Positions 9,089-27,290 of a stretch of DNA of 35,252 nucleotides are shown piece by piece. The position numbers were made by a program, and so were the translations under genes. Position 1 is the first letter of the stretch. Each line of letters starts with the position of its first letter. The DNA comes from a virus. The notes under the pieces were generated by a model that was not told the origin of the DNA, made no database searches, and saw only the letters and a list, made by a program, of their open reading frames with translations. The stretch lies in the IMG/VR virus record IMGVR_UViG_3300009159_003934, positions 1 to 35,252 of that record. One strand, given 5' to 3'.

Positions 9089-9882
9089 TGATATTTCCTT
9101 AATTCTTGTTTGAATATTTCTAACTCTTTGCGTTTGCCTTTGGCCGACCAGATGGCACTGTCGGGTTGCATGCGCCAGTCAACATAACTTATAGGCAACA
9201 ATCCTTTGTTGTATTTGGTAATAACTGAGTCCAGACTGTGTTGGTCCAAAAACCAATAGATATTGTCTTGTTCTATTTCGTGGCGTATAACTTGTGCTAA
9301 TTCTTTTATAAATTGTACAGCATTTGCCTTGGGTGTGTACAGTATTGCTCCGGCTAAATGTCCACCTTTTTCTTTTTGGTACAAGTAAAAGTCTTTGTTG
9401 GCATCATCAGCAAACTCAGATTGGAATGGTGCGCGGACAAGCCCATCAATATCTATCTCTAAAAAACGGCACGGTTCAGTGACAAACTCGGCCAATCTGA
9501 CAAAACGCATACAAGCATAGTATGTTTTATAAATCCACATTGGCAAGTTAGCGTTGTCTGTAAACTGTTTTAATCCAAGCATTTTATTTTTACGACTATT
9601 TTGCGGTTCTGGCAAATTGTTTCGGCTCCAATACTGTATAGTAGATTCAAACTGCTCTGGGCCAAATGTTTCCCAGGTTACACTAACTCGATCTGTTTGA
9701 TGACAAAAGTCAAGTTGACTCGGCGTTGGATTATACAGATGTAAATGTACGCCATAGTTGGTGTTTTGTTTTACACTATTAACTAGCTGACGGCCAAATT
9801 TATCAAAATAACCGCTGTCAGCGGCGGCGTAAACAAAGAAATTATTCTGGTCTAACTTTCCAGACAGTGATGGGATAATCAT
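9085..9882 (-). CDS. GT-A type glycosyltransferase
   Basis: A 265-residue protein. Residues 16-50 (FVYAAADSGYFDKFGRQLVNSV... HLHLYNP) and the metal-binding DID at 144-146 (FLEIDIDGLVR) give the nucleotide-sugar transferase pattern. GGHLAGAILYTPK and DQHSLDSVI follow, matching the later GT-A blocks. It is the first gene of the minus-strand run from 9882 to 3319. There is no Shine-Dalgarno before its ATG; instead TAAATA lies six bases upstream, in a 22-base divergent spacer shared with the plus-strand gene at 9905. Substrate unknown. Confidence 0.6.
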   Translation of the reverse strand: MIIPSLSGKLDQNNFFVYAAADSGYFDKFGRQLVNSVKQNTNYGVHLHLYNPTPSQLDFCHQTDRVSVTWETFGPEQFESTIQYWSRNNLPEPQNSRKNKMLGLKQFTDNANLPMWIYKTYYACMRFVRLAEFVTEPCRFLEIDIDGLVRAPFQSEFADDANKDFYLYQKEKGGHLAGAILYTPKANAVQFIKELAQVIRHEIEQDNIYWFLDQHSLDSVITKYNKGLLPISYVDWRMQPDSAIWSAKGKRKELEIFKQELRKYQ

Positions 9883-9884
9883 AG

Positions 9885-9894
9885 TAAATATTTA
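9885..9894. promoter_or_regulatory. Palindromic bidirectional late-promoter core TAAATATTTA
   Basis: The 22-base spacer between two divergent genes contains TAAATATTTA, a perfect palindrome. Read on either strand it supplies TAAATA, the core of the late-promoter-like motif used elsewhere in this window. The core ends 6 bases before the minus-strand ATG at 9882 and 14 bases before the plus-strand ATG at 9905. The two leading bases of the full TATAAATA box are not matched on either strand. Confidence 0.35.
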
Positions 9895-9904
9895 ACTAAA
9901 AATT

Positions 9905-10738
9905 ATGCGTGTAAGTATTTTTGATCAGTACGGGGCTTTGAACAGTGCGCCAATATTTGCGGCTATACGTGCTGGGCTTGACCACATTGGTATTGAACAC
10001 AACAGCATGGACAGTTCAGCCGATGTTGCTGTTATCTGGAGCCAACTATGGCACGGTAGAATGAAGCACAATCAAAGTGTATGGGAAACATTCCGTAACA
10101 GCAATCGTCCTGTCATAGTGGTCGAAGTAGGCATGCTACGTCGTGGCAGCACTTGGAAACTGGGTGTCAACGGAACTGGTAATAATGCATACTACGGAAA
10201 AAAGTTGATTCCCGGACGTGCGGCACAGTTGAGACTGGAGGCAAAACCCTGGACCAATGCTGGATACAACATTGTGATTGCCGCACAACGGTCTGACAGT
10301 CAGCAGTGGGCAGGACAGCCACCCACTGTGGCGTGGCTAACCGAAACTGCTCGCACCATTAGAAAATACACTGACAGACCTATTATTGTACGTCCACACC
10401 CAAGACAGCGTATCAGTGACATTCCTGGCTGTGTTATTGAAATGCCTCGGCCCATACAAGGAACATATGACAGTTTTGATTATGACCGATGCTTGTCAAC
10501 AGCCTGGGCCGTGGTCAATCACAACAGCGGGCCTGGCTCACAGGCTATAATGAACGGTGTGCCGGGCTTTGTACACGCTAGTAGTTTGGCTGCACCTGTT
10601 GGCAATACAGATTTGTCCACAATCAACAACCCGGCAAAACCAGACCGAACTGCATGGCTAGAGCGACTAGCACACACAGAATGGTACACAGAGGAAATTG
10701 CCTCAGGATTGCCGCTTCGACGATTACTGTTGACCTAA
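9905..10738 (+). CDS. KpsC/KpsS-like putative glycosyltransferase, paralogue 3
   Basis: A 277-residue protein sharing the C-terminal architecture of the genes at 1286 and 2373: IIVRPHPRQRI, then WAVVNHNSGPGSQAIMNGVPGFVHA, then NTDLSTINNPAKPDRTAWLERLAHTEW. The HP....NS....G.P pattern is that of capsule-synthesis GT-B proteins. It is a single plus-strand gene between two minus-strand blocks, 22 bases from the divergent gene at 9882 and overlapping the methyltransferase at 10724 tail-to-tail by 15 bases. No Shine-Dalgarno is visible. The isolated opposite orientation suggests a separate acquisition or an inversion. Confidence 0.5.
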   Translation: MRVSIFDQYGALNSAPIFAAIRAGLDHIGIEHNSMDSSADVAVIWSQLWHGRMKHNQSVWETFRNSNRPVIVVEVGMLRRGSTWKLGVNGTGNNAYYGKKLIPGRAAQLRLEAKPWTNAGYNIVIAAQRSDSQQWAGQPPTVAWLTETARTIRKYTDRPIIVRPHPRQRISDIPGCVIEMPRPIQGTYDSFDYDRCLSTAWAVVNHNSGPGSQAIMNGVPGFVHASSLAAPVGNTDLSTINNPAKPDRTAWLERLAHTEWYTEEIASGLPLRRLLLT

Positions 10739-11479
10739 CCAAGACAAACTCTTGTCAATCCAGGCCAGTACAAGATCTTGTTGTCTTACATGCCCGTAGC
10801 GATTTATACTTCCTACCGCAGTTTCCGGCAGTAAGTTTTTATCTGCCAACTCATACCAAGTGGTAGTCTTTGGATCCATTGGAGCATGTTCACTCTTATA
10901 AGCAATTACATGTATGAATTCGTCGTCTGGTTGTTTTAAAAAGAATCCCGAATTACAGTCCCAGCCATTGACGGCCAGCATGTGCATTAAACTCACAACA
11001 GTATGATGATAATAACATCCAGTTGGTTGCACAAATGCCAGTTGACGTATATCCATGTTGGTGGTCTGCGGAACTGCCATGATCAACATGCCGCCCGGTT
11101 CAGCAATAGCGTTCCACTTGGCTAACGTTGCTAGTGGATTGATACAGTATTGAAATGCATCATGACACCATAACACATCAAACTTTGACTTGCCTGGCAG
11201 ATTTTCTGTATTTTCAAAATCTATTTTTTGATACACAATGTTAGAATGCTTTTTAACCACAGCAGGTGTGGTACCTGTGTCTATTCCTGTGCAACGAATA
11301 TTTAAGGGAATTGGAGCATCGTCTCGAGTTGTTCTAGTCGCCCACCATTCTAAATCCAGTCCTGTTCCGCATCCCAAATCAACTAATGTGCCGACACTTT
11401 CCATAAAATCGTCATACTCAAATAATGTATTGAGTGTTTGTAAACTATGTGCATGGCTTTCTTCAAAATTTCTAAACAT
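10724..11479 (-). CDS. Class I SAM-dependent methyltransferase
   Basis: The start at 11479 (MFRNFEESHAHS) is chosen because AGGA lies about five bases upstream; an ATG at 11494 would add five residues. The 251-residue protein shows TLVDLGCGTGLDLEW as SAM motif I, CTGIDTG as the acidic strand, FDVLWCHDAFQYCINPLATL as the 'D.v.....l.h' motif and AEPGGMLIMAVPQ. It overlaps the preceding 337-residue gene by eight bases. A glycan or small-molecule methyltransferase is the probable role, given the neighbours; the C-terminal third is not recognised. Confidence 0.7.
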   Translation of the reverse strand: MFRNFEESHAHSLQTLNTLFEYDDFMESVGTLVDLGCGTGLDLEWWATRTTRDDAPIPLNIRCTGIDTGTTPAVVKKHSNIVYQKIDFENTENLPGKSKFDVLWCHDAFQYCINPLATLAKWNAIAEPGGMLIMAVPQTTNMDIRQLAFVQPTGCYYHHTVVSLMHMLAVNGWDCNSGFFLKQPDDEFIHVIAYKSEHAPMDPKTTTWYELADKNLLPETAVGSINRYGHVRQQDLVLAWIDKSLSWLGQQ

Positions 11480-12485
11480 ATTGTTCCTGTGCAAATTTGT
11501 GTATTAACTTGGCATGAAGGCCGTTTCTAATAGCAGTATTTAAATTGCGATAATGCTCAACATTTTTCTTAAATCTTGACCAATGCGTTAATCGCAGTTG
11601 TGTCATGTTGTGCTTGGCCAGTGTTTGATGCAATAACTTTAATACTTCTTGGCGACGTTGATGCACATCTTGTATGCTATCATAGTAATGGTTTTCAAAC
11701 ACATCATCAAACACATCAAATCCTAGCTTGCGTACTTCTTCGACCAGTCCCGGTACTGCATACCAGATTGGATACTGATGCCACACTATAGATTTAAAAG
11801 TTTTTTCTGTTATGAATATATTTTGCCAGACTCCAGCATCAATTTGACTTGAAGATTCTACCACAAGATTAACCGGAGCACGATAAAATAAATCCTGCTC
11901 AATAGAATATGTAGCAGTGTTATCGGCCCATATAGGAAACGGATGCGGGTGCATGAGGTTTGCTAGTTTGCGATCAGGATCGTAGTCATCTGTTCCCAGC
12001 GTCAGCAACATCCTATCAAGATCAAATTGATCCATCAATAATTTTCCAAACTCAACTCTATCTACGCTGCCACGCCGCATGAGACATATAAAATTATAAT
12101 CCATTCTGACTGATTGCCAGTTGATTGAATCTACAATATCTATGAGATTTTGGTGTATGGCCATTCTATCAAGAATGTTTATAGCAGGATATGGCAATTG
12201 ATCTAAAGATTCCTTGCTGGTAAACACCACACGAAAATTTGTAGGCGCAACGCCTTGCGCCGTCATCCAGGTGTAGAATGCATGTAACTCTTGCGCACCA
12301 ATCCCTTCTGGGCCACAATCAATTACCCAAGTGTAATTGCGCATGTTTTCCTGGGTAATGCCAACATCAGCACAGTCCTGCACAAATACCTCTACAACGC
12401 GACCAGACATGTAGTCGTCATATGGTACTTGATACCATATTTTATAATAAACTGCAAAATCTTCAATTGCAATACGATACGGCAT
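11472..12485 (-). CDS. Unknown protein with an ITEKTFKSI motif, possibly glycosyltransferase-related
   Basis: A 337-residue protein whose function I do not recognise with confidence. The visible hallmark is FITEKTFKSIVWHQYPIWYAVPG around residues 222-244, a motif found in phage and bacterial proteins distantly like GT10 fucosyltransferases, where K/E residues contact the sugar nucleotide. FICLMRRGSVDRVEF around 131-145 fits the preceding GT-B strand. The C-terminus is rich in His, Arg and Lys and looks helical. It is joined to uvsY by TAATG and to the methyltransferase by an eight-base overlap, bridging the recombination block and the glycan island. Confidence 0.4.
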   Translation of the reverse strand: MPYRIAIEDFAVYYKIWYQVPYDDYMSGRVVEVFVQDCADVGITQENMRNYTWVIDCGPEGIGAQELHAFYTWMTAQGVAPTNFRVVFTSKESLDQLPYPAINILDRMAIHQNLIDIVDSINWQSVRMDYNFICLMRRGSVDRVEFGKLLMDQFDLDRMLLTLGTDDYDPDRKLANLMHPHPFPIWADNTATYSIEQDLFYRAPVNLVVESSSQIDAGVWQNIFITEKTFKSIVWHQYPIWYAVPGLVEEVRKLGFDVFDDVFENHYYDSIQDVHQRRQEVLKLLHQTLAKHNMTQLRLTHWSRFKKNVEHYRNLNTAIRNGLHAKLIHKFAQEQYV

Positions 12486-12937
12486 TATAATTGTATATCC
12501 TCCATGCCGGCCGCTCGCAGTCTTACTACGTGCCCTAACATAAAGTTTTTACTTTCCATTGCTTTCATAATGCCCAGAAATCGATTACGCAACAATGCAA
12601 CTTCGTTGATGATAGTCTCAAAGTCAATTACTTCATCTTCACCATCCACATACTTTTCAGCATCTCGACTGGTCAGCGCACGAGCATAGCCTTCTAGATA
12701 CTTTTGAAAATGTCGACGTCGAATCTTACGTAGTTGTATATTAAGGAAGTTCAGCACCGCTTCAATCTCTTGCAATTGATTAAAGCGGTGCTCGGTAATA
12801 CCCGGCAGTGCTGTGATATTTCGTTCAACCATTCCGCCAATGGCACAATCACGACGTGCAGACTCAAGTTCATTTTCGTAATGAGCAATAAAATCTGGGA
12901 TTTCTCCCAGATTTGCAGTGACACGGTTATACCACAT
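12485..12937 (-). CDS. uvsY: UvsY-like recombination mediator
   Basis: A 150-residue protein slightly longer than T4 UvsY (137). The C-terminal third fits UvsY: RRRHFQKYLEGYARALTSRDAEKYVDGEDEVIDF corresponds to the 'kArldYYsGr...y' region, and LGIMKAMESKNFMLGHVVRLRAAGMED corresponds to the UvsY ending 'l.aIksRgF.i.hi..mRafEaG'. UvsY loads UvsX onto ssDNA covered by gp32, and all three genes lie in this 3.5-kb block, which supports the call. The N-terminal half is only weakly similar. No clear ribosome binding site is seen before the ATG. Confidence 0.7.
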   Translation of the reverse strand: MWYNRVTANLGEIPDFIAHYENELESARRDCAIGGMVERNITALPGITEHRFNQLQEIEAVLNFLNIQLRKIRRRHFQKYLEGYARALTSRDAEKYVDGEDEVIDFETIINEVALLRNRFLGIMKAMESKNFMLGHVVRLRAAGMEDIQL

Positions 12938-12945
12938 ATTTTAAA

Positions 12946-13203
12946 TTAGTCTTCGTATTCAGAGTCTAAATCATCTTCATCTTCGTACTCTTCCTCTTCA
13001 GGTTCGTCGTCGAGATCTCGGATGTAGGCTGCCAGTGCTGTTTTAACATCTGTATCGCCTTTGAACGCTGTACGGATATCGTCTGGGTCACAGTCGTTAT
13101 CCACCAGCACAGATACCAATACTTCAGCGGCTTCAGTGCGATCCACTGTGTTAACATACCGTTTAAGTTCATTCCAAATTTCGCTTGCTAAATCCACTGC
13201 CAT
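12946..13203 (-). CDS. Small acidic protein of unknown function in the uvsX operon
   Basis: An 85-residue protein: about 65 residues that look helical (SEIWNELKRYVNTVDRTEAAEVLVSVL, then VKTALAAYIRDL) followed by an extremely acidic tail of Glu, Asp and Tyr. The strong Shine-Dalgarno GGAGGAATAAA before ATG suggests high translation. It begins two bases after the uvsX stop and is followed eight bases later by uvsY, so it is co-expressed with recombination genes. The acidic tail resembles DNA-mimic or protein-interaction tails such as the gp32 C-terminus. No function is assigned. Confidence 0.7.
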   Translation of the reverse strand: MAVDLASEIWNELKRYVNTVDRTEAAEVLVSVLVDNDCDPDDIRTAFKGDTDVKTALAAYIRDLDDEPEEEEYEDEDDLDSEYED

Positions 13204-13204
13204 T

Positions 13205-14266: not shown

Positions 14267-14290
14267 AATTATTCCTTTTTAATTTAAAAC

Positions 14291-14319
14291 ATTATAACAG
14301 ATATGTTAACTCTCGTCTA
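14291..14319 (-). promoter_or_regulatory. Possible sigma-70-type promoter for uvsX
   Basis: On the minus strand TAGACG (14314-14319, four of six matches to TTGACA) is 17 bases from a perfect TATAAT (14291-14296), 24 bases before the uvsX ATG. It overlaps the end of the sulfotransferase gene. The host sigma preference is unknown, so this is tentative. Confidence 0.35.
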
Positions 14320-17002: not shown

Positions 17003-18802
17003 TTACTTGCGCATCATTCCACTAAGTTCTCTAAGGCGGTCCAGGAAGCTGGTGTCCTTTTCTACCGGTTTCATTTTACCCGAATGTCCATATTGTCCTT
17101 GTAATGCTGTAGTTTCTTCCAGGGGTGGATTGCCAGTGGTTGCGAACATGGATTCATCGGCTGGTGCCTTTCCGGACAATCGATTAAGTGTTGCTAATTC
17201 TGATTCATACATGCCGCTGCCGCACTCCATCAAGCCGTGTTCAGGACAGTGTTCGCCTTCGGCAGTGTAGTTGCATGATCCATCTGTTTCTTCTTCGCCA
17301 AATGCATCTTGTGCGGCACTGCCTAGTTTGGCACCAGTCATTGCACCACCTGGGCTCTTTGTCAATGCGGCACCACCAATGCCACCTACTATTGCTCCAA
17401 GCATACCATCTTGCAGTAACTCGTTATTCATTCCGCCATCAACTGAATATTCTTCATCATCTTGTTCGGCAACAGGAGGGGGCGGAACTTCGGCTGCTGG
17501 TGCAGCGGCCACTGGTGCTTCCGGAGCCACTGTGGCCGGAGCCAACTGTTCGGATTTGAGTGCATCTAACACTATATCAAAATCATCAAATCCTTTGCTG
17601 GCCATATCAGTGATACGTGCAATAACTATACTACGGCAGTCAGCATCGGGATCTTGTTCTGCCAAGTCTTGCAGTTGATCAAACAAGATGTCATCACCAA
17701 CTAAACTGTACAACTGTTCGGTTGCGTTTGTTGCATCTGCACCAACTGGCAATTCCTGTGACAACAGTGCAATAAGCTCTTGCTGTTCTTCTGGTGTGTT
17801 GGGTGTGGCCCAGGTGCCTTCTAATAGGTTTTCAGCCCAGGCTTCAAATATGTTTGCTTCTTTCATTGCGGTTCCTTGTTGTTGTATACGGGCCAAGATA
17901 GGTAAGGCCTGTTCAATTCGCGAATCAATTGTTTCTTGAACAAATAACGTTTTAATATCTTCGATGATTACATCTTGTTCTGTTATATCAGCAGGATTCC
18001 AACTTTCAAAGTAGCTGTTGTATCCACGGCTGGAAGCAAGACCTTTAAGAGCTCGGCTCACTGTGGCATGGTACACATTGGTTTCGTTCACCAGATTGGC
18101 AGTGTCGCCTTCAAACACACGTCCATGACTGGCTCTGCGAAAACGGCTTAGTACGTTGAGTTCTTCTACCATGTTGGCAATGTGCTGTCCACGCATGTCA
18201 TATGGTCTGCCGCCTTGGCGCACATGTTCTACCATGGCACGGCCTCCTGCCAAGTTGCGGAATGGCAACTTGTAGCGTTCACCTTCGGCTGTTTCTAAGA
18301 ACAAACTTTCAACTTGGCGGAAACGTGCTTCATTCACACCCATTGGACGCTTGTGCCGTATCATTAAGCGCACAGAATCTGGACCACCATTCCAACTCAC
18401 ATTCTTTGTGCCGTTCCAACTTTCGAACAGGCCTTCTTTAAGAGCTGCTTGCCCTTGCATACTGTACTTGAGTCTGTTGATATTTTGGCTACCAAAAGTC
18501 ATAAAATTCTTTGTGGCAAAGTTTTTAAGTTGGTGCTGGAATTCATACCATTCTGTTTTATCTTCGCTGTCCATGCCGCGGCCCACATTGTCACCACTGA
18601 ACAATTCCAGTTGTTTATCATCTCCCAACATCACAACCACTGTGCCGTAGTTGGTGCCGCCGGAACTGATGAATTCAAAACTGTAAATTTCAGCATCTTC
18701 AGCCGAAGGTGCGGCTTTGCCAGTGCTGTCTAGTATTTCTGGGTCAAAGCCACGAGTGACCAGTAGGTCAAAAAGTTGTTGTCCGGGAGTATTCTGTGCC
18801 AT
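17003..18802 (-). CDS. Unknown 599-residue protein, probable virion component
   Basis: I do not recognise a family. Residues 1-340 look globular and alpha/beta (two FESWN segments, near 125 and 263). From about 420 a Pro/Ala/Val linker (PVAAAPAAEVPPPPVAEQDDEE) leads to a glycine-zipper segment GAIVGGIGGAALTKSPGGAMTGAKLGSA near 460-490, which could pack against membrane or other subunits. Then comes a Cys/His cluster CNYTAEGEHCPEHGLMEC (Cys510, Cys519, His522, Cys527), a zinc-site candidate. The last 60 residues contain two LxxLxxLSG-like helical ends. GATAAATA lies seven bases before the ATG, implying late expression next to gp17. A structural or injected protein is likely but unproven. Confidence 0.6.
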   Translation of the reverse strand: MAQNTPGQQLFDLLVTRGFDPEILDSTGKAAPSAEDAEIYSFEFISSGGTNYGTVVVMLGDDKQLELFSGDNVGRGMDSEDKTEWYEFQHQLKNFATKNFMTFGSQNINRLKYSMQGQAALKEGLFESWNGTKNVSWNGGPDSVRLMIRHKRPMGVNEARFRQVESLFLETAEGERYKLPFRNLAGGRAMVEHVRQGGRPYDMRGQHIANMVEELNVLSRFRRASHGRVFEGDTANLVNETNVYHATVSRALKGLASSRGYNSYFESWNPADITEQDVIIEDIKTLFVQETIDSRIEQALPILARIQQQGTAMKEANIFEAWAENLLEGTWATPNTPEEQQELIALLSQELPVGADATNATEQLYSLVGDDILFDQLQDLAEQDPDADCRSIVIARITDMASKGFDDFDIVLDALKSEQLAPATVAPEAPVAAAPAAEVPPPPVAEQDDEEYSVDGGMNNELLQDGMLGAIVGGIGGAALTKSPGGAMTGAKLGSAAQDAFGEEETDGSCNYTAEGEHCPEHGLMECGSGMYESELATLNRLSGKAPADESMFATTGNPPLEETTALQGQYGHSGKMKPVEKDTSFLDRLRELSGMMRK

Positions 18803-18809
18803 AGTGTTC

Positions 18810-18817
18810 TATTTATC
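18810..18817 (-). promoter_or_regulatory. Late-promoter-like GATAAATA, seven bases before an ATG
   Basis: The plus strand reads TATTTATC; on the minus strand this is GATAAATA ending seven bases upstream of the ATG at 18802. A T4-type start about six bases downstream of the box would leave a leader of about two bases. No Shine-Dalgarno is seen between box and ATG. Confidence 0.5.
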
Positions 18818-18827: not shown

Positions 18828-20402
18828 TTAACGCAATGTAGCAAAAAATGGCATGGGCTCTATCATTGTATCGCCAAAATCACGCATTTGCGAGTCCATT
18901 TCTGTGTGATAGTTCTGCAACAACTGCATCATGCGTATGGCCAACAGTGTGCCCATTACCAAGTCGTCTGTTTCTCCAGGTTTGGCAGCGTAGCTTGTTC
19001 CGTGTGCCACAAACGTTTTGAGCTCTGAAACCAGCGGAGCACTGTTGACGGTCATTTTTTTAGATTCTACCAGGATCTTTAACTTGCTACAGGCCGATAG
19101 TTTGCTTTTATTAGTGGTGTTAAATCCTTTGCGGATTCTACGAGCACCACCTGCTACAGAATTATCACTTAGGAAATAGCCTTCAATGTTTTCTTCGCCA
19201 AATTCAACAATACTGATCAGTGCGGCTTCGCCTATGGTGTTGTTCTCTACCGAGTAATAAATGCTTTTGGGATCTTTAACTGCTTCATTGATGTGCTTGC
19301 ACACATCTGCTAATATACGTATCTGTGCAGGGATAGTAGTTCGGTTGTGGCGCCATTCAGCCACTTGTATAGTGGTGTTGGCTTCAAACACTTGTATAGC
19401 TGCCGGGTCTCCTCCGGTGCCCAAACTTGGATCCAAGGCTACAACATACAGTTTACCAGCCTCGGGTCGTTTGTACCAACGTACTTGTCCTGTTCTGTAC
19501 AAGGGTTCTTGTTGGCCTTTTAACTCAACCAAGATAGCCGGTGCAATCAGTGTTTCATCATTGATAATAAATTCGCAGCCAATCTCTCGACGGAATCGAT
19601 CAGTTCCCAACTGTGCTTCCATGCTGGCGCCCCAAGCCGCATCGCGGTCTGGGTGCTCTTGCCAGAAACTGCGGAATGCTCGGAATCCATTGATGCCTAA
19701 CGGTGTTGGATTGCCATATTCATCTTCACACTTGTTGGCGCTTTTCCACAACAGCGCAAACTGATCTTCGTCTGAGTTAGGAGTACTTGTAATAATTGCC
19801 TTACCGCCAGTGGCCAGTGTAGGGCTAATACTAGTCCAGAACTCTTTGGCAATAGTGGGTCGAACAAACGCAAACTCGTCTGCGTACAGCAGTGATATAC
19901 TCATACCACGACCGGTTGTTTCTGTGGTTGTGGCTGATATAATACGACTGCCATTTTCAAAGTCTATTGAGCCTTTGTTGTAGCTGGTGACACCAGCTCT
20001 AATATGGTCCGGGCACAGTTCATACGCAAAACGTATACGTTGCATGATCTCTTGCGCACCTGTGTACTTGTGTGCGGCAATAAGAATAGTTGAGTCCGGC
20101 ACAAACATAGCATACCATAACAGGTATCCGGCAGCACTTGTAGACTTACCTGTTTGTCGAGGCATCATTGAGATACTGAAACGATAGTTATGATACACAT
20201 TGATCAATCGTGCCTGATACTCAAACGGATGATACAACATCTTGCCTTGTGTAGGGTGCTGTATATAAAAGAAATGATCCAGGAAGTATGCAGGACCTGT
20301 TACAGGATCTGCACAGTCCATAAATTCTGTTATTTCGGATTCTGAGAATGACTGGCGCCGGTGTGGTGCTTTGATCAGTACACCTTCTAAACTTTTAGCC
20401 AT
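18828..20402 (-). CDS. gp17: Terminase large subunit gp17
   Basis: A 524-residue product from the ATG at 20402; an in-frame TTG two codons earlier is less likely. The ATPase domain has MMPRQTGKST (Walker A, about 79-88), SLLYADEFAF with Walker B Asp175 and Glu176, and the coupling motif ITSTPNS near 205-211. The nuclease domain starts with YVVALDPSLGTGGDPAAI (Asp324 and Asp332), followed by EVEN-type YYSVENNTIGEAALI. T4 gp17 is 610 residues, so this is a compact version. It packages DNA into proheads with the small terminase. It overlaps the radical SAM gene by eight bases (ATGGCTAA), so its translation is coupled to that gene. Confidence 0.95.
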   Translation of the reverse strand: MAKSLEGVLIKAPHRRQSFSESEITEFMDCADPVTGPAYFLDHFFYIQHPTQGKMLYHPFEYQARLINVYHNYRFSISMMPRQTGKSTSAAGYLLWYAMFVPDSTILIAAHKYTGAQEIMQRIRFAYELCPDHIRAGVTSYNKGSIDFENGSRIISATTTETTGRGMSISLLYADEFAFVRPTIAKEFWTSISPTLATGGKAIITSTPNSDEDQFALLWKSANKCEDEYGNPTPLGINGFRAFRSFWQEHPDRDAAWGASMEAQLGTDRFRREIGCEFIINDETLIAPAILVELKGQQEPLYRTGQVRWYKRPEAGKLYVVALDPSLGTGGDPAAIQVFEANTTIQVAEWRHNRTTIPAQIRILADVCKHINEAVKDPKSIYYSVENNTIGEAALISIVEFGEENIEGYFLSDNSVAGGARRIRKGFNTTNKSKLSACSKLKILVESKKMTVNSAPLVSELKTFVAHGTSYAAKPGETDDLVMGTLLAIRMMQLLQNYHTEMDSQMRDFGDTMIEPMPFFATLR

Positions 20403-21531
20403 TTGCAAACTCCGGCCATAATTTCACAAATTTTCCTGCGCTGTCAGGATGATACTGTGTTTCAATCTCTGTGATATGTTGTTTAAATTTTTGCAAAATT
20501 ACAGGTTGTTCCTGTACCACATTGCGATATGTGGCCAATGCATTGTCAAAAAACGATCTCTCAACTGGTGTTGCCAATCCTGTGGCGTAAAAACGTTCGA
20601 TCTCTGCGGCTGCCAATTTGGCAACACCTGGGCCGTGCAAGAATGGATCAAGGTAGTCAGGCTGGAATAAGTTTTGCCATAGTACTGTAACACCTTGCGC
20701 CTCTGCCCATTCACGCAATTCCACAACACGAGTGGCATTGTAGATGTTGTACACAGCATGGATGCCGCCCCAGTGGCCGGACTTGCTCATTAGTTCTTTG
20801 ACTGCGGCCAGGTTGTGCGTTAATAACGCCCATTTGCCACCGTGTCTGACATATTCAAATCGATCGCCAATGTTGTCAAAACTCATACTCCACCCAACTC
20901 GTGATCGCTGACTCAGCTTGCTGAAGATTTTGTTTTTGTCTAAATCCACACTCATGTTGGTAATGAGAGTCACAATAGCGTCTTTGGGAATCACATCCAG
21001 CAGTCGTTCATTTTCTGGCAGCAGTAACGGTTCGCCACCAACCAAGGCCATTTCATGTATGTGTTCACTGTGCTGTTCAATGAAGTCACACACTTGTTCA
21101 TAGTAAGGACGTGAACCTGACTTAAAAGGAACGCCTTTGATACTGGCCCATTTTGAACTGCAATATTCCATGCAGTAGTTACAACTTAGATTGCAAGTGG
21201 TGTTCCAGCGTATGTCTATAATAACAGGATAATGGTACTGTGTGCCTGCGGCAGCATAATCAAAGTTGGGATTTACGCTGTTGTGCCACGCACGTTCAGA
21301 TCGGCTGCCCAGGCGCTCTGCTTGCACACAGTTGGAACAGTAGGCATGTGGCTGGCCCTGTGCAATAGTACCGCGGATTTCTTGTAGTAGATCTCCGTTG
21401 AGGATTTCAATAATGCCGTCCGTATTTAAATTGCCCAGCATGTTGGGGTCGCCTGCACAGCAAGTTTTGACATCGCCACGTGGGTTTATGTGTAGGCCAC
21501 GCCAGGGTGCGGCACAGTAGAAATTGGACAT
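20395..21531 (-). CDS. Radical SAM protein with N-terminal SPASM/twitch-like cysteines
   Basis: A 378-residue product from the ATG at 21531; a TTG at 21552 would add seven residues. The radical SAM cluster motif is CNLSCNYC (Cys113, Cys117, Cys120), followed by ALVGGEPLLLPEN and TLITNMSV. Ahead of it the first 70 residues carry FYCAAPWRGLHINPRGDVKTCC and HAYCSNCVQ, i.e. Cys6, 24, 25, 65 and 68, matching the auxiliary Fe-S SPASM/twitch pattern that normally follows the core. Proteins of this layout are known in phages but have no assigned reaction. TAAATA lies five bases before the ATG. The overlap with gp17 puts it in the packaging operon. Confidence 0.8.
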   Translation of the reverse strand: MSNFYCAAPWRGLHINPRGDVKTCCAGDPNMLGNLNTDGIIEILNGDLLQEIRGTIAQGQPHAYCSNCVQAERLGSRSERAWHNSVNPNFDYAAAGTQYHYPVIIDIRWNTTCNLSCNYCMEYCSSKWASIKGVPFKSGSRPYYEQVCDFIEQHSEHIHEMALVGGEPLLLPENERLLDVIPKDAIVTLITNMSVDLDKNKIFSKLSQRSRVGWSMSFDNIGDRFEYVRHGGKWALLTHNLAAVKELMSKSGHWGGIHAVYNIYNATRVVELREWAEAQGVTVLWQNLFQPDYLDPFLHGPGVAKLAAAEIERFYATGLATPVERSFFDNALATYRNVVQEQPVILQKFKQHITEIETQYHPDSAGKFVKLWPEFANG

Positions 21532-21536: not shown

Positions 21537-21542
21537 TATTTA
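21537..21542 (-). promoter_or_regulatory. TAAATA five bases before the radical SAM ATG
   Basis: The plus strand reads TATTTA. On the minus strand TAAATA ends five bases upstream of the ATG at 21531, the spacing at which a T4-like late transcript would start on the A of the ATG. No Shine-Dalgarno at normal distance. The two bases before it are TG rather than TA. Confidence 0.35.
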
Positions 21543-21564: not shown

Positions 21565-22380
21565 TTATTCTGCGTTCTTGCCGCACCGGGCACGTTTGGC
21601 ATTGGTCAGCGCACCGTAGTCCACTGGCCATTCTGCACCAGGTAAAACTTCTCGAGCGCCTTTTGGATAAGCAAACTTAACGCCAGCACGGCTTTCGATG
21701 CTGGGAATCGGCAGGCGGAATCGGGTCAAGTCGTTGCCCAGGTTAACATATGGTTTGGTGTGTGGAAATGCCCAGCCGGCAATTTCGCCAGTGGCGCCGT
21801 TCACAACAATCTTGTAGTAACCATTGGGTACAATAACACCGTTGCCAATATATGGGTCACCAGCGCCATAGAATGCGCCAACGTATATGGTAAAAGCCTG
21901 GTTGCGTTGCACTGCCCAGCCTCTGATGGATGTCTCTAACAACTTCCATATACCACGATTTAAACTGCCGTGTTGAGGATACATGTTTGTCATTAAAAAA
22001 CTTTCGTACTCAACAATCTCGCTCCAGCTTAGGTCGCCATCCGGTGCGGCATGGCCTTTGTCGTAGCCAGTTCCTGCATAGTCATCTGGCCTGGCACCGT
22101 TGACCACTGATCGATCTGCTACAAATGCGTTGGTACGTGGCCAGCAACCCAATGCGTTTTGTGGCAGTAGGGTGTAACTCACATAGGCAGGGATTTTTGC
22201 AGGAGCGTCATATCCTACCAAGTATGCTTCACGGCAAATTGGTTGTGCTGGACGTTGTGTTTGTGCCCATCCATATGGTGCGTGTACCACGCAGGCCTGT
22301 GCGGGCAGTGGGGCTCGTTGTTCCCAGGCGTGTGATAAGTTAGTGGCTGTGATCAACAGCGCAAATAAGATTTTTTTCAT
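21565..22380 (-). CDS. Secreted DNA/RNA non-specific endonuclease (NUC1-like)
   Basis: A 271-residue protein with a textbook signal peptide: MKK, a hydrophobic stretch ILFALLITATNL, and a likely cleavage after SHA (residue 18). The catalytic region is YDKGHAAPDGDL (DKGH at 107-110 in place of the usual DRGH, His110 as general base), followed by FLMTNMYPQHGSLNRGIWKLLE with Asn141 as the expected magnesium ligand. Family members cut DNA and RNA without sequence preference. Four cysteines (30, 49, 79, 266) could form disulfides outside the cytoplasm. TATAAATA is four bases before the ATG, indicating late expression. Export to the periplasm or medium is predicted. Confidence 0.85.
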   Translation of the reverse strand: MKKILFALLITATNLSHAWEQRAPLPAQACVVHAPYGWAQTQRPAQPICREAYLVGYDAPAKIPAYVSYTLLPQNALGCWPRTNAFVADRSVVNGARPDDYAGTGYDKGHAAPDGDLSWSEIVEYESFLMTNMYPQHGSLNRGIWKLLETSIRGWAVQRNQAFTIYVGAFYGAGDPYIGNGVIVPNGYYKIVVNGATGEIAGWAFPHTKPYVNLGNDLTRFRLPIPSIESRAGVKFAYPKGAREVLPGAEWPVDYGALTNAKRARCGKNAE

Positions 22381-22384
22381 CAGA

Positions 22385-22392
22385 TATTTATA
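22385..22392 (-). promoter_or_regulatory. Perfect TATAAATA four bases before the nuclease ATG
   Basis: The plus strand reads TATTTATA. On the minus strand TATAAATA fills the 12-base gap between the fibre-like gene stop (22393) and the nuclease ATG (22380), leaving TCTG before ATG. No Shine-Dalgarno fits. A T4-like start would fall at or inside the start codon. Confidence 0.55.
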
Positions 22393-23184
22393 TTATGCTA
22401 TTTGGTATGTGCCACTGATGTCAAAGTGTGCATCGCCTGCTATGGCCCAATAGGCAAGAGTATTACCAGGTGGGACTCCTCCCGGTACATTGAATTTCCA
22501 TTGTAAATCGCTGGCAGTCTGTGAATAAAAGAATTTCATTGTGCTGGTGCTTACAGTACTATCGGTGTGTCCGGCAATGTGATAAAGAGTGTTGGCACCC
22601 GATCCGCCACCAGATCCAATTTGATGTAGTGTACCATTGGTCGAAGTCCAGGTTGCGTGTGCAGGAAATGGCAAAGTTATTTGATATTGACTGTTTCCGT
22701 AATTTGTAGTTCCTACAAAATCGACATTGACATGAAAGGTGCATATTGAATTATGTAACACATAACTACCGGACACAGTGCCGCCCGCAAATGTATTGTT
22801 AACATCTTTAAACTGAGGATCAAACGCACTTATAACTTCAGTCACTACATTGTTGCCATTGAGCACAGAGTTGCCAGTAACAGTAAGTGTATTGCTGACA
22901 AACGTCAGATTGGCTGATCCTGTAAATAAGTTGCCACCTGCATTTAACTGAAGTGACCCAACTGGGCCGGATGGATCAGCATGTGCTCCGCCGCCGCCTG
23001 TAGAAATTAAATTTAAGTCGCCATTGGTGTTACCAATGTATACATCATTATTTAAAAGATTGACCACCATTTCGCCAGGTCTAGCATTGCCGTTGTAGTT
23101 AGCAATGGTCTCTTGAGCATTGTCTTTCATTACCGTGCGGCTTATGCCGGTAATGTCGTCGTATGGTGGTGGTGGATTTGCCAT
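22393..23184 (-). CDS. Tail-fibre-like virion protein
   Basis: A 263-residue protein. RPGEMVVNLLNNDVYIGNTNGDLNLISTGGGG at about 36-68 is the short beta repeat seen near the N-terminus of many phage tail-fibre and receptor-binding proteins (gel-vnl...vyvGn..g). It continues with Gly/Asn/Ser/Thr-rich strands (LTFVSNTLTVTGNSVLNGNNVV) and a C-terminal beta-rich part of about 140 residues ending in AYWAIAGDAHFDISGTYQIA. No catalytic motif is seen. A CTAAATA box lies 25 bases upstream. It probably contributes to host recognition; a short adsorption or decoration protein is the alternative. Confidence 0.6.
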   Translation of the reverse strand: MANPPPPYDDITGISRTVMKDNAQETIANYNGNARPGEMVVNLLNNDVYIGNTNGDLNLISTGGGGAHADPSGPVGSLQLNAGGNLFTGSANLTFVSNTLTVTGNSVLNGNNVVTEVISAFDPQFKDVNNTFAGGTVSGSYVLHNSICTFHVNVDFVGTTNYGNSQYQITLPFPAHATWTSTNGTLHQIGSGGGSGANTLYHIAGHTDSTVSTSTMKFFYSQTASDLQWKFNVPGGVPPGNTLAYWAIAGDAHFDISGTYQIA

Positions 23185-23209
23185 GATATCTTTAAATTTC
23201 TAGTTAAAG

Positions 23210-23217
23210 TATTTAGT
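23210..23217 (-). promoter_or_regulatory. Late-promoter-like ACTAAATA
   Basis: The minus strand reads ACTAAATA, sharing the TAAATA core, ending 25 bases before the ATG at 23184. The same CTAAATA variant lies 26 bases before gp18, which supports both. Confidence 0.4.
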
Positions 23218-23224
23218 TATAAGT

Positions 23225-23605
23225 TTAATAACCCTTGAACGGCTTGACAAGGCTCTGTGTGACTACAAAATTGGGTTCATCACTCTCAGCCGTTGATACC
23301 AATTGCTTACCACCTGGTGTATTGGTCATTGCCAATGCTTGATCAATAACCTGTGCTATACCTGAATTCATACCTGCCACAACTGCATGTTCGCCAAAGG
23401 CAGTTTCTGCTGACCATTCTGGCATGAACGGGTTTAGATCATCTTTTGCGGCATCGCTACGTGCTCGCGCCAGTGCCACGCCCATTCTGTATGTTTTGTA
23501 TGGGTCCGAAGAACTTAGGCCCGGCAAGGTGTAGGTGTAGCGTAGGGGATTTTTAGTTTCCGGTGGCAGTTCACGTTGCTCTGCAATAAATTCACGGGCT
23601 CTCAT
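23225..23605 (-). CDS. Small protein with a T4-like capsid-targeting N-terminus, copy A
   Basis: A 126-residue protein starting MRAREFIAEQ. The start matches the T4 internal-protein capsid-targeting sequence MKTYQEFIAE, and IAE followed by Gln fits the (I/L)-x-E cleavage consensus of the T4 prohead protease gp21. The remaining ~116 residues (TLPGLSSSDPYKTYRMGVALARARSDAA..., AFGEHAVVAGMNSG) have no family I recognise and end in SLVKPFKGY. The neighbouring gene has a similar start and a similar FKGY ending, so they are probably diverged duplicates. ATGA overlap with that gene. An internal, perhaps injected, head protein is predicted. Confidence 0.65.
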   Translation of the reverse strand: MRAREFIAEQRELPPETKNPLRYTYTLPGLSSSDPYKTYRMGVALARARSDAAKDDLNPFMPEWSAETAFGEHAVVAGMNSGIAQVIDQALAMTNTPGGKQLVSTAESDEPNFVVTQSLVKPFKGY

Positions 23606-23973
23606 CGTGGATATCCTTTGAATCCTTGCACAGGACTTTGTTTGTTGGTAGACTCTAATTCTTGACTGCGCAGGTCACCGTGGTTGAGGTCTTGGTGTTC
23701 TGACCCCACAGCTTGGAATGCTTTTTCTATCATGTCTTGTTCAACATCAGTGTAGGGCATGGCCACATTGTAACGTCCTGCCCAGGATTCATGATCTATC
23801 TTTGGAACAAACGTGCCATCCGTACACGCGGCGGCCATCATGACTCGATTGAGTTCGTAGACTCTATCGGCTAGATCTACATCTCTAAACTTGTTGAGTC
23901 CAACTGTGGCTCGACTTCTTCGTTGACCAATCTTGCCGGTTTGTTTCTCAATGAGAAACTCATGAGCTCTCAT
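23602..23973 (-). CDS. Small protein with a T4-like capsid-targeting N-terminus, copy B
   Basis: A 123-residue protein starting MRAHEFLIEKQ, a variant of the MxxxEFIxE capsid-targeting pattern with LIE as possible prohead-protease site. The mature part would begin KQTGKIGQRRSRATVGLNKF, which is strongly basic, as expected for a protein packaged with DNA. The C-terminus SPVQGFKGYPR matches the ending of copy A. The middle (DLADRVYELNRVMMAAACTDGTFVPKIDHESWAGRYNVAMPY) has no recognised family. It overlaps copy A by ATGA. Confidence 0.65.
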   Translation of the reverse strand: MRAHEFLIEKQTGKIGQRRSRATVGLNKFRDVDLADRVYELNRVMMAAACTDGTFVPKIDHESWAGRYNVAMPYTDVEQDMIEKAFQAVGSEHQDLNHGDLRSQELESTNKQSPVQGFKGYPR

Positions 23974-23975
23974 GT

Positions 23976-24269
23976 TTATGCGCCTGCGGCGTTGTAAACA
24001 CTTGACTGTGCAGATGTTGCTGTGCCCAGGGCTGTTGCAGTTACATTAGCACCAGCAAGGATAAGACGATTGCCTGCGCCAACATAAATTTCTTGTACAG
24101 TGCCTGCTGGCACAGAAACCACGTTGGCATACAAGTTACCCTCAGCAGATGCTGAGCCCAATGCTGTGGCAAATACTTGGTATGTGACGTCAGTACTGTT
24201 GGCAGCAATAGATGCTTTGTCTGTGGTCCACACAATGTTGCCTGCGGCGTTAATTACTTGAATAGCCAT
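23976..24269 (-). CDS. Small virion-associated-like protein, unknown
   Basis: A 97-residue protein rich in Ala, Thr, Val and Gly with alternating polar and hydrophobic residues (VINAAGNIVWTTD, LYANVVSVPAGTVQEIYVGAGNRLILAGANVTATAL), consistent with a compact beta-sandwich such as a head decoration protein. No family is recognised. GGAAAG precedes the ATG as ribosome binding site. It sits three bases downstream of the large AT-hook protein gene and two bases upstream of the capsid-targeting-like protein gene, so it is in the same late operon. Function unknown. Confidence 0.6.
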   Translation of the reverse strand: MAIQVINAAGNIVWTTDKASIAANSTDVTYQVFATALGSASAEGNLYANVVSVPAGTVQEIYVGAGNRLILAGANVTATALGTATSAQSSVYNAAGA

Positions 24270-24272
24270 TTT

Positions 24273-26129
24273 TTACTTTCCAAATGTTCGGTATAAGTTC
24301 AACAAGTTCTGTTCAACTTTTGCACTTTGTTCCATGCTGACTTGTCTACGCAGTTGACTTGCCAGTACAGGCACAGTGGATTGTCCTGTACTCTTGGGAC
24401 CGTTTAATCCACCCGAGTATTGTAGTGCGTTGTCGCTGGTTTCAGTGTCAGTGGGCCAGTTTGGATTGTTTTCGTCAATCATATCGCAACCGCAGGGTGA
24501 TGATCCGCATGATGAACATGTTTCTTCGTGTTGACTTACACCAGCCATCTTTAATAGTTCTGCTAGACGTTCTGCATCTTCGCCATCAGCATTCACAGTG
24601 ATGCTTTTGTTGCCAGGGTGACCGTCTTCTGAGCCTTTGCTCATGTTAACAGTAACACTCATGCCTTCGGTGATCAGTGTTTCCAGTTGTGCATCTAGTG
24701 CTTCGTAAACACTGCCGCCAAACTTGAACTTGCTCTTGGACTTTTTAGGCTCGTCTTCTTTGACTTCGTCTTTTTTGTCATCATACTCGATGTCTTTGGT
24801 GACTTTTTTGCCTGCTCGTTCGGCTTTATCATCTTCTGAACCACGCTTCTTGCCATGGATGCCATCTTTTTTCTTTTCATCGTACTCGATGTCTTTGGCC
24901 ACTCGCTTGCCGGCCTTTTCTGCGCGGTTGTCTTTTTTATCTGTAGACTCTTCTTCCAGTGGCATAACACTATAACCGCACTCTTCCAATGCCGAGATTG
25001 CTTCTTGAATTTCTTCTTCAGACATCTTACGACCGCCTTTGTGCTTGTATGCTTTGGCAGTGGTGCGCTCTGGTCCTTTTGGTGCGCCTTTTGGTCGACC
25101 ACGTCCGCGCTTTTCAATGGTGTTGCCTTCAGCATCTGTTTCTGATCCAACACTCATGCCTTGTGGATCCACACGACGTGTTACTTTACGGCCTGTTGCT
25201 GTCCACTCTGTGTCATGCTTGGCACCGTGTGTGACTTCGCCTGTGCGTGGAGTGGCAGCACGTGGCTTTTTGTAGTTGGTAAACGGATTGAGATCTTCTT
25301 CTTCATCAATGCCGCTTGTGTCTGTAAATTCTTTACCACCTACCTTGAACTTACCGCCCTTTGGTGTCTTGGCCAAAGCGCCGGTAAATGCATTGCCTTC
25401 GTCAGCAACCTGTTGGCGGCCACCCAATGCATTGCGCATGGCTTCGGCAGCAACGTCGCCTAGCATTTCGTCAACTTCTTTTTTGGCTCCAGCGATCTTG
25501 TCAGCAAAAGTGATTTTATCTTTTGGTTCTGCCAATGCGGCAAACTCTTTTGCTTTGGCAGGATTCATTTTTTCTTTAACTTGCTTTGGATTTGGTTCTG
25601 CACCAGGCTTCATGCCAGTTTGTGGCATGTCCATTTTACGTTGCAAGTCACGGATCATGTCTACGTCGTCGCCGTGGCCAACTTTGTTTAACACTGCGGC
25701 GCCGGCTTTCTTGGCCAGGCCGCCAACTTTCTTCACCACATCAACTAGGCCTTCGTCTACTTCTTTGTTGTCATACCGGTCATACTTGTTACGAATATTA
25801 CTCATGGTCTTGTCACTGGCATGCTCACGGCCGGCTTTTTGCAAGGCTTTCATACCTTCGTCACCGTATTTCTTTTTACCAATAGCAGCCTGGAATGCAC
25901 TTTCGTCCATGTCTTGTTCTTCTAACTTGCCGGCCTTGGCCAACTTGGCACGTACAGCACCGGCTACACGTTCGCCTGCTTCTTTTGAGCCGTAACGCTC
26001 GGCAGCACCCTTGGCAATCTTCTCAAAGTTCTTGCCTGGCTTGCCTTCGTCACGCTCGGTTAACTGTGCGGCTTCTGGCTTGGCAGCGATGCTGTCTAAT
26101 GTTTTGTTTAGGTTGTGGAAAAAACTCAT
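24273..26129 (-). CDS. Large charged protein with AT-hook and Cys cluster, probable internal head or DNA-binding protein
   Basis: A 618-residue, Lys/Glu-rich protein of no known family. Features in order: N-terminal helix MSFFHNLNKTLDSIAAKPEA; a Lys-rich helical region; KRGRGRPKGAPKG at 340-352, an AT-hook core (RGRP) able to bind AT-rich minor grooves; a tandem 20-residue repeat AEKAGKRVAKDIEYDEKK / AERAGKKVTKDIEYDDKK (401-420 and 435-453); a small domain SVTVNMSKGSEDGHPGNKSITVNADGEDAERLAELLKMAG (491-530); CSSCGSSPCGC (Cys538, 541, 546, 548), a metal-site candidate; and a Gln-rich C-terminal helix. Several (I/L)-x-E sites (LTE, ITE) could be cut by a prohead protease. A ribosome binding site AAAGGA precedes the ATG. 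Confidence 0.6.
   Translation of the reverse strand: MSFFHNLNKTLDSIAAKPEAAQLTERDEGKPGKNFEKIAKGAAERYGSKEAGERVAGAVRAKLAKAGKLEEQDMDESAFQAAIGKKKYGDEGMKALQKAGREHASDKTMSNIRNKYDRYDNKEVDEGLVDVVKKVGGLAKKAGAAVLNKVGHGDDVDMIRDLQRKMDMPQTGMKPGAEPNPKQVKEKMNPAKAKEFAALAEPKDKITFADKIAGAKKEVDEMLGDVAAEAMRNALGGRQQVADEGNAFTGALAKTPKGGKFKVGGKEFTDTSGIDEEEDLNPFTNYKKPRAATPRTGEVTHGAKHDTEWTATGRKVTRRVDPQGMSVGSETDAEGNTIEKRGRGRPKGAPKGPERTTAKAYKHKGGRKMSEEEIQEAISALEECGYSVMPLEEESTDKKDNRAEKAGKRVAKDIEYDEKKKDGIHGKKRGSEDDKAERAGKKVTKDIEYDDKKDEVKEDEPKKSKSKFKFGGSVYEALDAQLETLITEGMSVTVNMSKGSEDGHPGNKSITVNADGEDAERLAELLKMAGVSQHEETCSSCGSSPCGCDMIDENNPNWPTDTETSDNALQYSGGLNGPKSTGQSTVPVLASQLRRQVSMEQSAKVEQNLLNLYRTFGK
24771..24929 (-). repeat. Two tandem-like 60-bp repeats inside the AT-hook protein gene
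   Basis: Unit 1 spans 24870-24929 and unit 2 spans 24771-24830. Both encode 20 residues of the pattern (D/N)-(K/R)-A-E-(K/R)-A-G-K-x-V-x-K-D-I-E-Y-D-x-K-K. At DNA level they share blocks such as CTCGATGTCTTTGG on the plus strand. They are separated by 39 bases. Confidence 0.8.
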
Positions 26130-26133
26130 TTTA

Positions 26134-26739
26134 TTATCCTTTTGGGTTGTAGCTTGTCGCTGGCTTGGGCGGACGCTTAACGTTGGTCATTGGGCTCTTG
26201 TCACCCATTGGTAAACTGTTTGTAGTAACGGCAGGAGGTGTCTTGCCACCGGCCACTGTGAACTCACTGCGATATGTGTTTTTCAACACTGCATGTTCGT
26301 CATACGGAGCAGAGTAGTCTTTGTACAAGGCCTTTTGCTCTGCATCTGGAGCAGGGTATGGAGAATTCAACAGGTCTTTGTTTTGTTTCTCAATGTCAGC
26401 AGTCAACTTGGCATTGCTGTCTTCATACGGCACAGTCAACATACGCACACGATTTGGATCAATGCCCAACATTTGTACAATTTGTTGAATCTGTGGCTCA
26501 ATTGCAGGATAGCGGAATTCAACATCCATGTGTGTTACACTATGGTTATCAAACGCAGGAAAATCTGCTGGCTTGGCCTGAACTGGCGATGTCTTTGGCG
26601 CTGTGATTTTAACAACATCAAACTGACGAAGTTTTTCTTCAAGTGCTTTGACTAAATCCCGAGGAGTATCACCCACGATTTTAATGCGGTAGTTGTATAC
26701 TCTTTCGTTTTCTGACAAGTATTCTTTAAAATGTTTCAT
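26134..26739 (-). CDS. Virion-operon protein with a capsid-targeting-like N-terminus
   Basis: The start is set at the ATG at 26739 (an in-frame TTG lies two codons earlier), giving 201 residues beginning MKHFKEYLSENE. This aligns with the T4 capsid-targeting sequence MKTYQEFIAE, with LSE as possible gp21-type cleavage site. YNYRIKIVGDTPRDLVKALEEKLRQFDVVKI and VEFRYPAIEPQIQQIVQMLGI form a ferredoxin-like alternation of strands and helices; the C-terminal 70 residues are Pro/Lys-rich and probably disordered. CATAAATA lies 17 bases upstream with AGGG as ribosome binding site. Similar proteins occur in marine T4-like phages without an assigned function, as far as I recall. Confidence 0.65.
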   Translation of the reverse strand: MKHFKEYLSENERVYNYRIKIVGDTPRDLVKALEEKLRQFDVVKITAPKTSPVQAKPADFPAFDNHSVTHMDVEFRYPAIEPQIQQIVQMLGIDPNRVRMLTVPYEDSNAKLTADIEKQNKDLLNSPYPAPDAEQKALYKDYSAPYDEHAVLKNTYRSEFTVAGGKTPPAVTTNSLPMGDKSPMTNVKRPPKPATSYNPKG

Positions 26740-26756
26740 AATCAATCCCTATATGA

Positions 26757-26764
26757 TATTTATG
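26757..26764 (-). promoter_or_regulatory. Late-promoter-like CATAAATA
   Basis: The plus strand reads TATTTATG; on the minus strand CATAAATA overlaps the end of the gp16-like gene and ends 17 bases before the ATG at 26739. A ribosome binding site (AGGGA) lies between them, so this one would give a normal short leader. Confidence 0.5.
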
Positions 26765-27266
26765 CTTGTTTATTCTTTTGATCTCTTGTGCCAATTAGTC
26801 GATCCAATAAATCGTTGCGACTCAGCACTTGGCCTTCGGCAGTTTCTACAGATTCATCTGCTTCGTCAGCACCTGCACGTTTTTCCCGATCAAGATCCAG
26901 TTTGGCTTTTTGTAACTGCAACTGAATCATTTTGAGTTTCTTGTTCATCTTGGCTGTTTTAGCAGTCAATGCATGTCCCAGCATGGCGCCGGCCACTGCA
27001 AAGATTTCACTGGCATAGCGACTGTCAACCTGCATGCCAAGGTCCATTAAATCATCAAAAGTTTCTGTGGCTTTTTGTGCCAGTTCGTCCATGTCGCCAT
27101 CACTTGCTTCAAGATCACGCACACCGGGCAAAGCCGCGTCGATCTTGTCAATGGCATTGTCAATTTCAGTTATAGCATATTGCGTAGTGGCAATATCCGG
27201 CACAGAATCGTCTGTGTTGACGGTGCTAGGCGGTAGGTCAAAAAGTTCTTCTAATTTTTTGGTCAT
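26760..27266 (-). CDS. gp16: Terminase small subunit (gp16-like)
   Basis: A 168-residue protein, close to T4 gp16 (164). LEELFDLPP at the start, then ITEIDNAIDKIDAALPGVRDLEASDGDMDELAQKATETFDDLMDLGMQVDSRYASEIFAVAGAMLGHALTAKTAKMNKKLKMIQLQL: a helix, a central coiled-coil-like region and a basic segment, the arrangement of T4-like small terminases. It recognises DNA and feeds it to gp17 during packaging. In T4, 16 and 17 are adjacent; here about 6.4 kb of other genes lie between. It starts with TAAATA four bases before the ATG in a hairpin-containing spacer. Confidence 0.7.
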   Translation of the reverse strand: MTKKLEELFDLPPSTVNTDDSVPDIATTQYAITEIDNAIDKIDAALPGVRDLEASDGDMDELAQKATETFDDLMDLGMQVDSRYASEIFAVAGAMLGHALTAKTAKMNKKLKMIQLQLQKAKLDLDREKRAGADEADESVETAEGQVLSRNDLLDRLIGTRDQKNKQA

Positions 27267-27270
27267 ACCA

Positions 27271-27290
27271 TATTTACCGCTTTTGCGGTA
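27271..27290 (-). promoter_or_regulatory. TACCGC-AAAA-GCGGTA hairpin merged with TAAATA before gp16
   Basis: On the minus strand TACCGCAAAAGCGGTA (27275-27290) is a perfect 6-bp hairpin with an AAAA loop. Its last bases run into TAAATA (27271-27276), which ends four bases before the ATG at 27266. The stem could cap the upstream gp4 transcript while TAAATA starts a new one. Confidence 0.4.

Follow-up and report, generated by a model that had tools for sequence, protein, structure and literature searches.

Promoter-to-start-codon spacing separates Shine-Dalgarno-led genes from predicted leaderless genes in a clade of T4-related jumbo phages

The stretch of viral DNA analysed here (the window) is a 35,252-bp IMG/VR virus record, IMGVR_UViG_3300009159_003934, in which the late-promoter core TAAATA stands at two distinct distances from the start codons that follow it. 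The terminase, tail sheath, tail tube, UvsX, UvsY and single-strand-binding proteins of the window belong to families of T4-type myoviruses, and the closest named phages for the terminase and sheath are PA5oct, Phosso and Atu_ph07. Because terminases near-identical to that of the window sit in contigs of up to 347 kb, the window is taken as a fragment of a jumbo phage, and by its gene content this phage is a T4-related jumbo myovirus. A search for the host via phage contigs in GTDB genomes returned no match.

The boxes of the window are listed in Table 1 and are grouped by the number of nucleotides (nt) between box and ATG into a near class (4-8 nt) and a far class (16-28 nt). The distances agree exactly with those of the first-pass annotation, which had placed the core 6, 7, 5, 4 and 4 nt before five ATGs and 12-26 nt before five others, and had judged five such close spacings to be improbable by chance. 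That judgement now has a number: when the 40 nt preceding each of the 42 genes called in the window were shuffled 20,000 times with single-base composition kept, a mean of 0.38 genes carried a box at 4-8 nt and only 1 of the 20,000 shuffles reached the observed five.

Table 1. Promoter boxes and associated genes of the window (SD, Shine-Dalgarno sequence; aa, amino acids)
Feature	Position	Strand	Distance or context	Remark
TAAATA late-promoter core, near class	9889..9894	(-)	6 nt before ATG 9882	
Gene with predicted leaderless mRNA, 265 aa	9085..9882	(-)		no PHROG match
TAAATA core, near class	18810..18815	(-)	7 nt before ATG 18802	ACTATG context
Virion structural protein	17003..18802	(-)		weak phrog_13484 match
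TAAATA core, near class	21537..21542	(-)	5 nt before ATG 21531	
Radical SAM protein	20395..21531	(-)	start ATG 21531	
TAAATA core within TATAAATA box, near class	22385..22390	(-)	4 nt before ATG 22380	
Nuclease	21565..22380	(-)		phrog_14168, profile match from residue 1
TAAATA core, near class	27271..27276	(-)	4 nt before ATG 27266	
168-aa protein, function unknown	26760..27266	(-)		phrog_16202
Variant box TAAGTA	29232..29237	(-)	5 nt before ATG 29226	TAA doubles as stop codon of the preceding gene
Sigma-70 -10 box TATAAT	34820..34825	(-)	5 nt before ATG 34814	
Weak -35 TTGCAT	34843..34848	(-)	17-bp spacer to TATAAT at 34820..34825	
TAAATA, far class	33273..33278	(-)	26 nt before ATG 33246 (tail sheath)	SD present
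TAAATA, far class	29902..29907	(-)	22 nt before ATG 29879 (tail tube)	SD present
TAAATA, far class	26757..26762	(-)	17 nt before ATG 26739	17 nt in 8/8 relatives
TAAATA, far class	23210..23215	(-)	25 nt before ATG 23184	weak SD
TAAATA core within TATAAATA box, exception	6872..6877	(-)	12 nt before ATG 6859	weak SD

The same layout is found in nine related contigs of 110-347 kb (the relatives), in which about 2,460 ATG-start genes were called with a hexamer coding model and the TAAATA-to-start distance was measured under three start rules. The distance is sharply bimodal, with 179 genes at 4-8 nt, 9 at 9-14 nt and 184 at 16-28 nt, and this bimodality is present in each of the nine. Under the leftmost-ATG rule, the pooled near counts are 40, 65, 23, 42 and 9 at distances of 4, 5, 6, 7 and 8 nt, respectively, and the far genes form a broad hump at 15-28 nt. 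Counting per family gives 73.5 near, 6.3 at 9-15 nt and 90.1 at 16-28 nt. A count by distance in relatives had been suggested by the first-pass annotation, and it finds the near spacing enriched relative to control hexamers: of 14 rearranged hexamers (A4T2), none is enriched at 4-8 nt except AAATAT and ATAAAT, which overlap the TAAATA motif, and ATAATA, which belongs to sigma-70 -10 boxes. The occurrences of ATAATA at 4-5 nt were initially read as a late-box variant, a reading dropped once they were traced to these boxes. The core TAAGTA acts like a near-class variant, as it precedes 28 genes of the relatives at 4-7 nt (7.1 expected) and has no excess at 17-24 nt.

The near or far class belongs to the gene family. 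Families were defined by reciprocal best hits, and of the 63 that have two or more members with a box, 31 are near throughout, 26 are far throughout and six are mixed, compared to a mean of 48.7 mixed families, and never fewer than 39, when labels are shuffled. Within near families the distance drifts among 4, 5, 6 and 7 nt, and the empty zone is rarely crossed. Orthologs of the virion structural protein gene have the box at 7 nt in all eight relatives that carry one, those of the 168-aa protein gene at 4-5 nt in all eight, and six members of the radical SAM family from the relatives at 4-7 nt. The nuclease orthologs are near in G001 and G004 and far in G006. The 265-aa protein gene, which is divergent from its upstream neighbour, has no box-bearing ortholog among the nine relatives. 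Its box lies in a palindromic TAAATATTTA at 9885-9894, which forms a late box on both strands between the divergent genes starting at 9882 (-) and 9905 (+), at distances of 6 and 14 nt. That the near spacing arose by chance might have been argued from the window, where the cases number only five and the upstream regions are AT-rich. The shuffles, the near genes of the nine relatives and the conservation of class by family speak against it, and chance, already refuted by the relatives, is now a vanishingly improbable account.

The split is not confined to late promoters. Sigma-70 promoters, defined in the same nine genomes as TATAAT with a -35 element of at least 4/6 matches at 16-18 bp, show near counts of 8, 26 and 5 at 5, 6 and 7 nt, none at 8-13 nt and a far group of 122. 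SD triplets accompany 93% of these 122 far genes and none of 40 near genes. The near mode lies at 5 nt when the box is the late one and at 6 nt when it is TATAAT, a shift that the known geometry of each promoter type predicts, the reference for the sigma-70 -10 box being its textbook distance to the transcription start. In T4, the late box lies about one helical turn upstream of the transcription start (PMC2988020). The window contains an exonuclease gene (34290-34814) with a sigma-70 promoter whose -35 is weak, and this gene is predicted to be non-late and leaderless. The first-pass annotation had described a two-class scheme of late genes; the two classes stand, whereas the restriction to late genes does not, since sigma-70 promoters divide in the same way. 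Homologs of the late sigma factor gp55 are encoded in G001-G006 (phmmer E 3e-6 to 1e-8), in a region outside the window. Single-sequence searches found relatives of gp44 but not gp45 or gp33, distant homologs of which could escape such searches.

The late core itself is TAAATA; the two preceding bases, the leading TA of TATAAATA, are for the most part little conserved. A hexamer this rich in A and T, located where ribosomes contact the mRNA, could in principle be an A/U-rich translation enhancer rather than a promoter, so that two unrelated elements would share one sequence; this location is itself a deduction, and no tool result favours an enhancer. By contrast, TAAATA with similar flanks also precedes SD genes, the rearranged hexamers lack enrichment apart from those that overlap the motif or belong to sigma-70 boxes, and TATAAT with a -35 gives the same pattern. 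Thus, an enhancer is very improbable, and the box is read as a promoter in both classes.

Sequences around the start codon also differ between the classes. For the late boxes of the relatives, SD-like triplets at -14 to -4 are found in 89% of the far class and 3% of the near class, with other genes in between at 53%; the low near value is partly geometric because the box fills that space. Under the coding-score rule, ATG is the start of 144/147 near, 158/177 far and 1633/2139 boxless genes. When the box is 5 nt away, the base preceding the ATG is a pyrimidine in 91% of cases, as expected for a pyrimidine-purine (Y-R) initiator. At 7 nt the consensus is ACT-ATG, suggestive of a 3-nt leader. Far-class boxes are enriched in A at box+5 to +7, the expected T4-type transcription start. 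This enrichment and the near mode of 5 nt lend indirect support to a start about 6 nt past the box. An unusually weak mRNA structure at the 5' end was rejected as an explanation, since near and far genes do not clearly differ in this regard.

Start calls are computational, which leaves room for the proposal that the near ATGs are spurious and that the true starts lie downstream with ordinary leaders. This proposal was named in the first-pass annotation as a way in which its reading could fail. However, none of the 179 near genes has an SD-led (4-nt SD) in-frame start within the next 24 codons, and ortholog alignments are in register at the near ATG, with 350 of 476 pairs beginning exactly there. 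The nuclease and radical SAM families, moreover, begin at these ATGs. Downstream starts are therefore as improbable as the enhancer.

Near genes might instead owe their translation to coupling with, or re-initiation after, the gene ahead of them on a long mRNA, with the close boxes being incidental or weak promoters. Most near genes do follow a same-strand gene closely (median gap 17 nt, compared to 30 nt for far genes), and in 27 of them the TAA stop of the upstream gene is the beginning of the box. Yet 56/179 near genes are divergent from the upstream neighbour (181/2090 for genes without a box), and for 62/179 no gene on the same strand ends within 200 nt. Coupling predicts neither the near-empty zone at 9-14 nt nor the shift of the near mode with promoter type. 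It is thus improbable, though slightly less so than downstream starts or an enhancer.

The near class spans a broad uncultured clade; T4 and the other cultured relatives that were checked essentially lack it. Among 236 further IMG/VR loci, it occurs throughout the range of terminase identity down to 50-55% and is nearly absent below 50%; 514 near boxes occur in the 223 loci whose terminase identity is 50% or more. On a tree of terminases, the near label requires 4 changes compared to 14 for shuffled labels, by a quick method and with some forks open. The carriers fall into a single large group, within which PA5oct is nested, and the group of Phosso and Atu_ph07, without the near class, falls outside. 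L275 and L276, which are sister to PA5oct, have the near class. Near and far boxes number 0 and 21 in T4, 0 and 19 in Syn9, 1 and 29 in PA5oct, 2 and 28 in Atu_ph07, 0 and 5 in GAP32, and 1 and 20 in Phosso, with Atu_ph07, GAP32 and Phosso searched in part. The T4 counts bear out the earlier remark that the scheme is unlike that of T4. PA5oct and Phosso orthologs of near-class families include six with a far box and SD and none with a near box.

The far families include the tail sheath, tail tube, baseplate wedge, head-tail adaptor and tail fibres. Among the near families are those of the nuclease, radical SAM proteins, metallophosphoesterases, superoxide dismutase, a fatty-acid desaturase, a VanY-type peptidase, several structural proteins and the portal (4 near, 2 far). 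In all four genomes tested, far genes are slightly better adapted than near genes to the codon usage of the sheath and tube genes, which fits, without proving, a division into high-output SD genes and lower-output leaderless genes. In the window, positions 603-12485 hold a cluster of methyltransferase-, oxygenase/glycosyltransferase- and nucleotide-sugar-dehydrogenase-like genes whose functions are uncertain.

Leaderless initiation is favoured by initiator tRNA and disfavoured by raised initiation factor 3 (IF3) (PMC9031893), and several translation components were considered as explanations of the near class. Neither IF3 nor translational GTPases of the IF2/EF-Tu type were found in the nine relatives. 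A phage IF3 as the explanation was set aside, as it is absent from these relatives and present in Phosso and Atu_ph07, both without the near class; the contrast between these two phages and the near-class clade may be meaningful. The IF3 genes are located in L271 and L272 (Phosso, Atu_ph07), that is, in the sister group. Ribosomal protein S21 was likewise rejected, being encoded by some members only and also by PA5oct, Atu_ph07 and Phosso. An initiator-type tRNA-Met with a C1-A72 mismatch is found at G001:110361-110435 and G004:222236-222310 and was not detected in G002; it is not diagnostic, and was rejected as an explanation, because PA5oct and Atu_ph07 carry similar ones and are without the near class. 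The relatives G001 and G002 have genes for transfer-messenger RNA (tmRNA) within their large tRNA arrays, at L088:10821-11310 and L139:11362-11767.

Taken with the spacing statistics and the relatives, which support the leaderless, two-class proposal of the first-pass annotation, promoter geometry makes it very probable that one fixed set of genes in these phages, about half of those led by a promoter, is expressed from leaderless mRNAs, or mRNAs with leaders of 1-3 nt, and another from SD-led mRNAs. The position of the promoter would set the mode of initiation, giving two modes in one phage. A box 16-28 nt before the ATG would start transcription about 6 nt past the box and yield a leader of about 10-23 nt with an SD, suited to canonical 30S initiation. 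A box 4-8 nt before the ATG would put the first base of the RNA on the A of the ATG or as much as about 3 nt ahead of it, and the mRNA would be read via recognition of its 5'-AUG, probably by 70S ribosomes. Boxes at 9-14 nt would be avoided because the resulting leader is too long for the leaderless mode and too short for the SD mode. The spacing rule covers gp55-type late promoters and sigma-70 promoters alike. The likely benefit is a full expression signal in about 10-14 nt, short enough for the gaps between packed genes and sometimes reusing the TAA of the upstream stop; next to the division of output, such compactness is a plausible second benefit. Such a signal would suit mainly enzymatic or lower-copy products, with bulk tail proteins (sheath, tube) keeping SD leaders.

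Several points weigh against this reading, in addition to the geometric part of the SD deficit. The transcription starts are extrapolated from T4 and sigma-70 geometry, and the starts of translation come from simple calling criteria (leftmost ATG or coding score), albeit with agreement among three rules. The gene starting at 6859 has its box in the otherwise nearly empty zone, 21 genes among the 236 further loci have boxes at 9-15 nt, and six families are mixed. Strict leaderlessness is further in doubt for genes with the box at 7-8 nt, where A at box+5/+6 suggests a leader of 2-3 nt (e.g., ACU-AUG). Thus, the near group is probably heterogeneous, with the A of the ATG as the expected +1 at 4-6 nt and a short leader at 7-8 nt. 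The link to low-copy products is weak, as the gap in codon adaptation is slight.

A broader proposal is a genome-wide dual translation code across the clade, in which the spacing of each family is kept in one of two ranges, making its mRNAs either leaderless or SD-led under both host-sigma and phage-sigma control, and which could let the phage shift output between gene sets via initiation factors, initiator tRNA or ribosome state. This extension is tentative and rather unlikely. Leaderless translation is usually seen as a minor curiosity in strongly SD-using systems. The predicted leaderless mode of these phages would instead be a systematic, evolutionarily fixed alternative in a broad uncultured group of giant phages, one that T4 and the cultured relatives examined do not reveal. 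The annotation of start codons in many viral genes would be affected, the near genes would offer natural material for testing which sequence rules govern leaderless initiation, and a direct test of whether phages regulate translation by initiation mode becomes possible.

Late transcription of T4 relies on gp55, gp33 and gp45 and the TATAAATA box (PMC2988020, PMC7892883). The jumbo phages resemble T4 in the type of -10 box, placed about one helical turn before the predicted transcription start, in gp55 homologs and in a far class with SD. They differ in the near class, which T4 does not have, and in a core reduced to TAAATA. In Deinococcus-Thermus, a '-10 region adjacent to ORF' (open reading frame) pattern is described (PMC12340547), in which, similarly, a -10 box adjoining the start codon makes leaderless mRNA a common mode of expression. 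That pattern is bacterial and of the sigma-70 type, whereas the one predicted here is viral and takes in a phage late-sigma promoter as well. Individual phage mRNAs are known to be leaderless, as exemplified by lambda cI (PMC9031893). Like cI, the near-class mRNAs are predicted, here from promoter geometry, to begin at the AUG; unlike the cI type, which concerns single regulatory genes, they form a genome-wide class. No report of leaderless mRNAs in T4-type phages was found in the literature, with most subscription papers outside the search. The Thermus phage phiYS40 produces leaderless middle and late mRNAs (PMC3594737). The likeness would be that of a lytic phage issuing many leaderless mRNAs, which the translation apparatus of the host reads. 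Thermus phage P23-45 is similar to phiYS40. The jumbo phages of this study, by contrast, are unrelated to phiYS40 and belong to another host phylum, and in them fixed gene sets are split under one promoter type, at sigma-70 and late promoters both.

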